Shown here one piece after another: positions 35,808-37,325 of a stretch of 64,000 nt of DNA. The position numbers and the translations under genes were made by a program. Where the stretch lies: assembly GCF_001854405.1 (NCBI RefSeq), contig NZ_CP017718.1, positions 2,914,001 to 2,978,000 on the forward strand. Direction: 5' to 3'. Numbering within the stretch: position 1 is the first letter of the stretch; every line of letters starts with the position of its first letter. The notes under the pieces are model-generated. The model saw only the letters and a program-made list of their open reading frames with translations. It made no database searches and was not told the DNA's origin. The DNA is from Hyphomonas sp. Mor2. GTDB taxonomy: Bacteria > Pseudomonadota > Alphaproteobacteria > Caulobacterales > Hyphomonadaceae.

Positions 35808-35894
35808 TTAGTCGATTCGACGAAAATCGATCAGATTGAGAATTCCAAAGACAGCCACAGTGGCAAGGATCGCCCAGACAGATGCATGGATCAT
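35808..35894 (-). CDS. Putative 28-residue single-span membrane protein
   Basis: Frame MIHASVWAILATVAVFGILN followed by LIDFRRID and a TAA. One hydrophobic helix (about residues 5-22) ends in a basic/acidic tail. A good ribosome site GAGGG lies 8 bases before the ATG. It is too short for ordinary ORF finding. It overlaps the first possible ATG of the divergent Nudix gene, so only one of the two starts is likely used. Confidence 0.4.
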   Translation of the reverse strand: MIHASVWAILATVAVFGILNLIDFRRID

Positions 35895-36440
35895 GGAAAC
35901 AGCCCTCAAATAAACTTGCGTCCTGTTAGACTGTCTTTATCGATTTGGCGAGCCCTGAAGCTGAAAACGTGGTGTCGCATCGTGGTTGACGTAAGGTCAC
36001 AGCTCTTTCGGACATGGTTTCGCTTGTCGAGGCCGATGACGCTTGGGGTGCGCGGGGTTGTCGAGAATGCGCAGGGCGAAATCTTGCTGGTGCGCCACAC
36101 CTATACAAAAGGCCTGTTCTTCCCTGGCGGTGGGGTTGAGCGCGGCGAGACGACGGAACTGTCGCTGCGACGAGAGCTGCAAGAAGAGGGCGGTGTGACC
36201 GTTACGGGCGCGCCGGAGCTGATCGGGGTCTTCTCCAATCATCGTGTGTTTCGCAATGATCACGTCCTGCTGTACCGGGTGCGCAGTGAGGCCTGGACCG
36301 CAGGCGGCGACCCGGTCGGGCATGAAATCTCGGAAATCGTCTGGTGCGATCCACTAGAACCGCCGGAGGACGCGACGCCCGGGACGCGGCGCAGGCTCCA
36401 AGAACTGTTCAAGGACGCGCCGCAATCCCTGATGTGGTGA
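35886..36440 (+). CDS. Nudix hydrolase
   Basis: Nudix box GGGVERGETTELSLRRELQE plus EGG (about residues 82-104) with the catalytic REx2EE. Hydrolyses some nucleoside diphosphate-linked compound. The start is doubtful: ATG at 35886 gives 184 residues but a weak ribosome site and overlap with a minus-strand small ORF; GTG at 35982 would give a more usual length. Confidence 0.82.
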   Translation: MDHGNSPQINLRPVRLSLSIWRALKLKTWCRIVVDVRSQLFRTWFRLSRPMTLGVRGVVENAQGEILLVRHTYTKGLFFPGGGVERGETTELSLRRELQEEGGVTVTGAPELIGVFSNHRVFRNDHVLLYRVRSEAWTAGGDPVGHEISEIVWCDPLEPPEDATPGTRRRLQELFKDAPQSLMW

Positions 36441-36539
36441 TTACCCTTGAGCAAAGGCAAACAGCGCCGGCATCGTCATGAAGACAATCGCCGCAAGCAG
36501 CAGCAGGTGCAGGCTGTATCTTTGCCAGATCCGTTTCAT
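36441..36539 (-). CDS. Putative 32-residue small membrane protein
   Basis: Frame MKRIWQRYSLHLLLLAAIVF continuing MTMPALFAFAQG then TAA. Basic N-terminus and one hydrophobic helix (about residues 10-29). The ribosome site is weak (GAGAGC). It lies directly after the convergent Nudix stop and 68 bases from a CtrA box, which could serve it as well as the plus-strand RNA. Confidence 0.35.
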   Translation of the reverse strand: MKRIWQRYSLHLLLLAAIVFMTMPALFAFAQG

Positions 36540-36607
36540 GCTCTCGATCTGATCGGCAAACGAGGCGTGAATAAGGACCGACTGGCGGCACAATTTAGGC
36601 GGGAATA

Positions 36608-36622
36608 TTAAACGCGTGTTAA
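36608..36622. promoter_or_regulatory. CtrA box TTAA-N7-TTAA
   Basis: TTAA-ACGCGTG-TTAA matches the full CtrA consensus spacing, the only such exact match I found in non-coding parts of the window. A possible -10 (CAGATAG) lies at 36630-36636, so a plus-strand start near 36645 is plausible. Confidence 0.6.
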
Positions 36623-36639
36623 AGCCTTATGTGCCAGAT

Positions 36640-36768
36640 AGAGGGCCATGCCGGGTGTCCCCTTTCCCGGTGTGCTAAGCAGGCAACCAGCGCGGTAATT
36701 CCTCCCCCTTAAATGGCGCGCTGGACCGGAACGAGACGGCCGCGCTACGTGTTAGCGCGGTCGTTTTG
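36640..36768 (+). ncRNA. Candidate small RNA with C-rich loops
   Basis: Three stem-loops in a row with no reading frame: CCGGG/CCCGG (36651-36655, 36666-36670) with loop TGTCCCCTTT; CCAGCGCG/CGCGCTGG (36687-36694, 36717-36724) with a 22-base loop containing TTCCTCCCCCTT; and a 12-base terminator stem followed by TTTT. C-rich loops that can pair with ribosome sites are a feature of alphaproteobacterial CCUCCUCCC-motif small RNAs. The 3' end overlaps the convergent pgsA stop. 5' end estimated from the CtrA box. Confidence 0.45.
36736..36767 (+). terminator. Rho-independent terminator of the candidate small RNA
   Basis: ACGGCCGCGCTA (36736-36747) pairs with TAGCGCGGTCGT (36753-36764) with one G-T pair over a 5-base loop; T-run 36764-36767. 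It includes the pgsA stop codon on the other strand. Confidence 0.65.
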
Positions 36769-37311
36769 GTTGGCGATCAGCGCTCCGATATAGAGACCCA
36801 GCGTGTAAACCGCGAGCAATGCGGCCAGCCAGACCAGGACCAGGCCCGCATTAAACAAGATCCCGCTGGCGAGTGGCGAGGCCAGCAACAGGATCGCTAT
36901 CGCGATCATCTCAATTGCCGTTTTCCACTTGGCAAGCGTCGAGACCGGCATCGAAATCCCTGGCAAGAGTCGCAGGCCCGTGGCGATGAGGTCACGGACA
37001 ATGATCGCGGCCGTCGGGATCAGTAGCAGCAAAGCCATGTCGTTCTGAAGGGTGAGCGCGACCAGACAGGCACCGACCAACACCTTGTCGGCGACGGGGT
37101 CGAGAAAGGCCCCCAATTCGGAGACTGCATCCAGTCGCCGTGCGGCATAGCCGTCGACAAAATCTGTCGCGGCGACCACGAGATAGGCGATGAACGGCCA
37201 GAGCGATGCGTCCGGCAAGCTGATGATCAGCCACGCGACGCCGCCGGCCAGAACACACCGGGCCAGTGTGAGCGCGTTCGGGAGCCAGGACAGGGCGTGT
37301 GTCTGAGACAT
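36745..37311 (-). CDS. pgsA: CDP-diacylglycerol--glycerol-3-phosphate 3-phosphatidyltransferase
   Basis: Makes phosphatidylglycerol phosphate in the inner membrane. CDP-alcohol phosphotransferase motif spans DFVDGYAARRLDAVSELGAF and LDPVADK, with all Asp in place. Several transmembrane helices, 188 residues. ATG at 37311 preferred over TTG at 37314. Third gene of gloB-cupin-pgsA. Confidence 0.93.
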   Translation of the reverse strand: MSQTHALSWLPNALTLARCVLAGGVAWLIISLPDASLWPFIAYLVVAATDFVDGYAARRLDAVSELGAFLDPVADKVLVGACLVALTLQNDMALLLLIPTAAIIVRDLIATGLRLLPGISMPVSTLAKWKTAIEMIAIAILLLASPLASGILFNAGLVLVWLAALLAVYTLGLYIGALIANQNDRANT

Positions 37312-37325
37312 CAACTGGACCGTAA

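Follow-up and report, generated by a model that had tools for sequence, protein, structure and literature searches.

Introduction

CcnA of Caulobacter crescentus is a 182-nt RNA located in the replication origin, with a CtrA box in its promoter and a CCCC loop for which pairing with GGGG upstream in the ctrA and gcrA 5' regions was proposed (PMC8959179). The ar14/NfeR1 RNAs are described as hairpins with anti-Shine-Dalgarno loops on dissimilar stems; NfeR1 is 123 nt long, and the reported promoter is of the sigma-70 type with an upstream stretch (PMC10746234). In the aR8 RNAs (SisA-D/MmgR), the C-rich sequence UUUCCUCCCU is single-stranded and follows a weak hairpin, and the C-rich SisA-D are sponged by CrfA in Caulobacter (PMC12559287). 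For CtrA, the consensus in H. neptunium is TTAA-N7-TTAAC, with 222 sites, and the main text of that article mentions neither a small RNA nor pgsA (PMC7200025).

Here we describe a locus of Hyphomonas sp. Mor2, analyzed within a stretch of 64,000 nt (the window), at which a CtrA box precedes predicted hairpins beside pgsA. Our preferred reading, to which we assign a probability of roughly 0.6, is that positions 36647–36768 of the plus strand specify a trans-acting small RNA (sRNA) of ~120 nt that would be activated by CtrA and would pair through C-rich loops with G-rich ribosome sites. CtrA bound at 36608–36622 would activate the promoter, the transcript would end at a hairpin over the pgsA stop codon, and the C-rich apical loops would be exposed for pairing with G-rich Shine-Dalgarno regions, where, by analogy with CcnA and ar14, they would block, or occasionally free, ribosome binding. 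CcnA is a described CtrA-box RNA with a CCCC loop; the window RNA would be a second, at another locus, and its conservation over a family with stalked budding bacteria would make the generality of post-transcriptional CtrA feedback testable. It would also add an RNA family not found by Rfam searches, for which relatives without the RNA allow comparison.

The window RNA shares with CcnA the CtrA box and the CCCC loop, and ctrA and gcrA here also bear GGGG near their starts; it differs in its length of ~120 nt, its position between a NUDIX gene and pgsA, and its two C-rich apical loops, as compared by description rather than by sequence. Like ar14/NfeR1, it combines several hairpins, anti-Shine-Dalgarno loops, and unlike stems, but it lacks CCUCCUCCC, gives no model match, and has a CtrA box instead of a sigma-70 promoter. 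A C-rich 10-mer of anti-Shine-Dalgarno character is common to it and aR8, whereas five genomes of the same genus that lack the pgsA-side RNA carry an aR8-like RNA elsewhere. C-rich loops are also said to occur in the sRNA sX13 of Xanthomonas, which belongs to another lineage and is set beside the window RNA by description only. We suggest, by analogy, that the window RNA resembles ar14 and CcnA in its type of action, and we claim membership in neither family.

Results

An exact CtrA box upstream of a predicted three-hairpin RNA

The palindromic CtrA box TTAA-N7-TTAA (TTAAACGCGTGTTAA) was located by sequence match at 36608–36622 on the plus strand and is the sole exact match in the window. Dinucleotide shuffles led to an expectation of 0.08 matches, near the ~0.1 chance boxes per 64 kb that the first-pass annotation had estimated when it called an exact CtrA site here, a call that the search bore out. 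Across the 3.63-Mb genome the pattern occurs 16 times (a density of ~0.28 per 64 kb) versus 28 times for the reversed control pattern; exact CtrA boxes are thus without genome-wide enrichment. The CtrA of this genome is 80% identical to the Caulobacter sequence used as query. Full CtrA boxes of Caulobacter have their 5' base near −35, as at ctrA P2, where it is at −39 (PMC4287350). Applied to the box 5' base at 36608, this spacing rule predicts a start near 36647, just 5' of the first hairpin (SL1); the box 5' base would then be at about −39, a spacing that fits activated CtrA promoters. The possible −10 element of the sRNA, AGATAG at 36636–36641 (plus strand), is placed by the same rule and is not conserved in sequence, and a simple scanner found no sigma-70 promoter for the sRNA.

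The stretch 36623–36768 sits between a NUDIX hydrolase ORF on the plus strand (35886–36440, start uncertain; PF00293, E 4.3e-18), which is the upstream neighbor, and the convergent gene that served as our anchor, a CDP-alcohol phosphatidyltransferase on the minus strand (36745–37314; PF01066, E 8.7e-28), to which the name pgsA was assigned both in the first-pass annotation and by us. A small ORF of 28 aa, MIHASVWAILATVAVFGILNLIDFRRID, was noticed by eye on the minus strand at 35808–35894, and a similar sequence is found near pgsA in genome G007.

The candidate sRNA (36647–36768, plus strand) is supported by fold and covariation, with both ends predicted. SL1 has its stem at 36648–36655/36666–36673 and the loop UGUCCCCUUU, and is followed by a single-stranded linker, GCAGG (36679–36683). 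The second hairpin (SL2), with a bulged stem at 36687–36697/36714–36724, presents the anti-Shine-Dalgarno-like loop AUUCCUCCCCCUUAAA, which includes TTCCTCCCCCTT at 36699–36710; CCTCCCCC is confined to SL2, and SL1 has CCCC. The predicted fold thus contains the two hairpins with CCCC-rich loops that had been noted downstream of the box. The third hairpin, a predicted terminator at 36732–36768 (plus strand), lies over the pgsA 3' end and has a loop with no C-run. It had been described at first as a 12-base terminator with a T-run over the pgsA stop, which holds for the fold, the core stem of ~12 bp, and the stop codon (minus strand, 36745–36747) that falls inside the hairpin; the subsequent TTTT (36764–36767) is partly paired in the predicted fold. 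A simple scanner for terminators did not list the 36732–36768 hairpin. The plus strand folds with −56.5 kcal/mol (36648–36770; z −2.7), an energy equaled by 1 of 200 shuffles, and the minus-strand fold of the same region is no better than shuffles (z −0.6). A coding reading of a 16-codon plus-strand frame from 36648, noted by eye, was rejected on account of short indels in the alignments of relatives.

Conservation and covariation within the genus

The box, SL1, SL2, and the terminator adjoin pgsA in 10 of the 28 genomes of the same genus, the source genome included. A DNA search gave matches in 9 of 61 genomes, again counting the source, and the match in G013 (L009) lies away from pgsA. When the 10 same-genus RNAs were aligned, 92.4% of the cells were paired, and 10 of the 29 base pairs had changed on both sides, compared with a mean of 4.9 in shuffles (1/500 as high) and with 0–4 in slid registers. 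These double changes affect 5/7 pairs of SL1, 2/6 of SL2, and 3/16 of the terminator. Conservation of the hairpins by covariation, which had been suggested as a check on the initial proposal, was accordingly observed. Among five covariation measures, that of further pair types was only mildly above shuffles (43/500 as high), and we take covariation as support rather than proof, since related sequences can beat such shuffles without a structure.

Several sequence elements are also retained. All 10 same-genus RNAs have GCAG in the linker and TTTT following the terminator, with the linker lying within AAGCAGG in 7/10, and CTCCCC is found in all 10 (9% of shuffles). In G015 the C-run of SL2 has been lost and CCUCCCC occurs in SL1. 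Conservation of the RNA and the box together, as elements, is well supported, and this conserved locus, with its CtrA box, is very probably transcribed into an sRNA.

The position over the pgsA stop codon, with the NUDIX gene upstream on the same strand, would also suit a reading in which the structures simply belong to the convergent pgsA and NUDIX genes, as their terminator and 3' UTR, and no independent RNA is made, and the exact box is missing beside pgsA in 18/28 genomes of the genus, as this reading would allow. We nevertheless consider it very unlikely, because SL1 and SL2 covary and their C-rich loops persist though they are unneeded for termination, the TTTT that follows the hairpin is on the plus strand while the minus-strand tail is not T-rich, and a promoter-type box lies upstream in 34/99 genomes of the family.

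One of those 18 genomes, G023, keeps the C-loop hairpins and a one-mismatch box; in G002, G004, G014, and G017, inspection by eye showed a NUDIX-like frame that abuts pgsA directly. For G012, G026, G020, G009, and G010, stretches near or on the far side of pgsA (2.6–4.6 kb) contained no exact box. Absence of the element from part of the genus is more simply read as loss, a view reached without a tree, because the layout is present, with drift, in other genera.

The divergent side of the CtrA box

On the minus strand the box faces a −10-like TAAATT (36592–36597), which belongs to the highly conserved block TTCCCGCCTAAATTGTGCC, lies at a spacing similar to that on the plus side, and leads to a 32-aa ORF, MKRIWQRYSLHLLLLAAIVFMTMPALFAFAQG (36441–36539, minus strand), that is ATG-started in 9 of the 10 box-bearing genomes of the genus. 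Across those 10 genomes, conservation amounts to ~1.6–1.8 bits per base on the minus side and ~0.3–0.6 in the plus-strand −10 region. The better-conserved minus side and the ORF indicate that the box need not serve the sRNA alone, and in this genus it is probably bidirectional, also driving the divergent 32-aa ORF.

A stricter version of this view is that the box serves solely the divergent minus-strand gene and that the hairpins belong to a separately transcribed RNA outside CtrA control. The far greater conservation of the minus-side core, its −10-like element at CtrA spacing, the small ORF, and the divergent YkuD-domain ORF of G070 all favor it, but the spacing on the plus strand is likewise suited to activation by CtrA, the minus side is conserved no better than the plus side in 22 g5 genomes, and G113, from another genus, keeps the box and the hairpins without the small ORF. 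On this balance we hold exclusive divergent use to be unlikely.

The 32-aa ORF is hydrophobic and conserved in the genus, and has no Pfam match. Hyphomonas-like genomes have a longer ORF at the divergent position, with a YkuD domain in that of G070, and since a PAL(F/L)AFA segment is common to the two, the 32-aa ORF may be a shortened N-terminal remnant of a YkuD-domain protein. At L016 of G015, the conserved minus-side block was seen by eye to lie ~21 bp farther away from the box, and another −10-like element occupies the usual spacing.

Conservation across the family

A pgsA match was obtained in 101 of 105 family genomes, and the pgsA 3' side was extracted from 99 of them (G024 and G100 were left out). 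The pgsA stop was taken from the matched frame, so that the anchor position may be wrong where pgsA has a long C-terminal extension (up to 64 codons). An exact box lies no more than 230 nt from the pgsA stop in 34/99 genomes, versus 0.2% of 4950 shuffles. By genus, the exact box is present in 10/28 genomes of g1, 22/41 of g5, 1/14 of g4, and 1/3 of g8; none was found beside pgsA in 13 genomes of six other genera. Among the g4 genomes listed without an exact box, 5/7 have a one-mismatch box.

At least two C-loop hairpins were predicted in 40/99 family genomes (11% of shuffles), compared with 2/99 on the opposite strand, and 15/99 have both an exact box and at least two such hairpins. Nearly all box-bearing genomes (30/34) have at least one C-loop hairpin, with a mean per sequence of 1.16 against 0.59 in shuffles. 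All 34 box-bearing RNAs contain TCCCC, CCCCT, or CTCCC, as do 56–78% of shuffles. The CTCCCC of the source genus is found in 0/22 g5 RNAs, which bear other C-runs; the exact C motif therefore differs between genera.

Covariation was also evaluated in subsets picked by eye, comprising 11 of 14 g4 genomes, chosen for clear hairpins, and 22 of 41 g5 genomes. The g4 consensus fold had a score of −40.3 versus −2.7 (sd 2.0) for shuffled columns, with double changes in 13/30 pairs; the structure of this second genus covaries and bears C-rich loops. In three g5 subsets, double-change pairs numbered 1/36 (g5a), 8/31, and 4/40. In pairwise alignments of 15 relatives with the window RNA, G070, G095, and G113 beat all 300 shuffles, seven were marginal (3 to 14/300 as high), and G122, G106, G074, G032, and G078 were no better than shuffles (36 to 186/300 as high); for these last five, putative orthology of the elements comes from position and layout alone.

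An RNA model of the window RNA and its same-genus relatives (R1) gave strong matches (E 5e-18 or better) solely in its 10 training genomes. Weak matches outside the training set fall beside pgsA in G077 (E 3e-5) and in G113, G023, and G078 (E 0.005–0.03). At loose limits R1 matched 59/105 family genomes (E 0.1) and 85/200 order genomes (E 0.05), tallies that are no evidence of the RNA because many of these matches align with the terminator positions alone.

In one g5 group, at L110, L103, L108, and other loci, a G-rich hairpin (GGGGGAGTGAACC) replaces SL1 in the same stretch as the C-rich loops, and could pair with these loops, internally or between copies. A G-rich segment was present in the same stretch in 10 of 22 box-bearing g5 relatives, as it was in 32% of shuffles, and in 0/10 same-genus RNAs. 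The g5 segments, together with the Caulobacter precedent in which CrfA acts on the C-rich SisA-D (PMC12559287), would be expected of an RNA that acts as a sponge or decoy, its C-rich loops capturing small RNAs rich in G, or the G-rich hairpin of some relatives, instead of mRNAs, but with no such segment in the source genus we regard that function as highly improbable for the window RNA.

Relationship to known RNA families

At the gathering cut-off, an Rfam search of the window detected a tRNA alone; a relaxed search added sraL at 19.9 bits and three weaker matches, all below cut-off. No description of a pgsA-side RNA was recognized among the literature matches listed. The similar architecture of ar14 (NfeR1), with anti-Shine-Dalgarno loops and unlike stems (PMC10746234), raises the question of whether the window RNA is a member that a too narrow Rfam model has missed, and one positional relative, G121, does match RF02344 at full length (36.5 bits, E 0.0015 for 25 kb). 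The window RNA itself, however, has no match to this model at E up to 10, none of the 105 family genomes exceeds its gathering score of 58.8 bits, and 1 of 14 control genomes also gives a sub-cut-off match. Of three hairpins each with an unpaired CCUCCUCCC, which would mark an ar14 RNA, the window RNA has none; it contains two C-rich loops and no copy of CCUCCUCCC. The 20 best ar14-like matches of the order, inspected by eye, lie away from pgsA. Membership in ar14 is for these reasons quite unlikely. As for aR8, which would be recognized by UUUCCUCCCU in a single-stranded stretch before the terminator, the window RNA instead has AUUCCUCCCCCU inside a hairpin loop.

Of the ar14-like matches located ~4 kb from pgsA in several same-genus genomes, the five inspected (L180, L181, L182, L183, and L186) were rejected as versions of the pgsA-side element because they contain GTTTCCTCCCT, as in aR8, and have no exact CtrA box in the preceding 140 bases. 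A further locus, L184 (G014:C10:159081–159200), is RNA-like, with two very C-rich hairpin loops and a weak ar14 match of 34.4 bits.

Possible targets of the C-rich loops

Upstream of the ctrA start ATG, CGGGGAGC was found in 9/9 genomes (the ctrA fragment of G011 was left out), and at all 8 readable gcrA loci two GGGG blocks lie no more than 35 nt from the ATG (G006 was left out). Among 197 sampled genes, GGGGAG occurs near the start in 4 and GGGG in 26. Predicted duplexes at least as strong were formed by 18 of the 197 genes for the SL2-ctrA pairing, 41 for SL2-gcrA, 72 for SL1-ctrA, and 37 for SL1-gcrA; reversed-loop controls gave, in the same order, 54, 34, 37, and 55. With 18/197 genes pairing with SL2 at least as strongly, ctrA is not singled out, and because two of the four ctrA/gcrA pairings are no better than their reversed-loop controls, the anti-ribosome-site reading, though plausible, is not specific.

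Of the cell-cycle-regulated anti-ribosome-site RNA that the first-pass annotation had proposed, the layout stands, with box, hairpins, and terminator conserved with covariation; the supposed loop pairing proved unspecific, given GGGG in 26/197 genes, and the box is also divergent. Judged from the sequences, the RNA may feed back on ctrA, and it is equally likely to act broadly, on many mRNAs. The wider proposal, that a family-wide CtrA-activated anti-Shine-Dalgarno RNA beside pgsA, distinct from CcnA by its neighbors, exerts feedback on the translation of ctrA and gcrA in the Hyphomonadaceae, is one that we put forward as speculative and rather doubtful. Were it true, a C-loop RNA would have been kept, or would have re-evolved, within the CtrA circuit across stalked and budding lineages, and the apparent loss in part of the source genus would provide a natural test. 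As a lead for targets, GGGGGAG-N(3–13)-ATG has 29 matches in the source genome versus 9 for the reversed pattern, and 21 of the 29 start ORFs of fewer than 100 codons.
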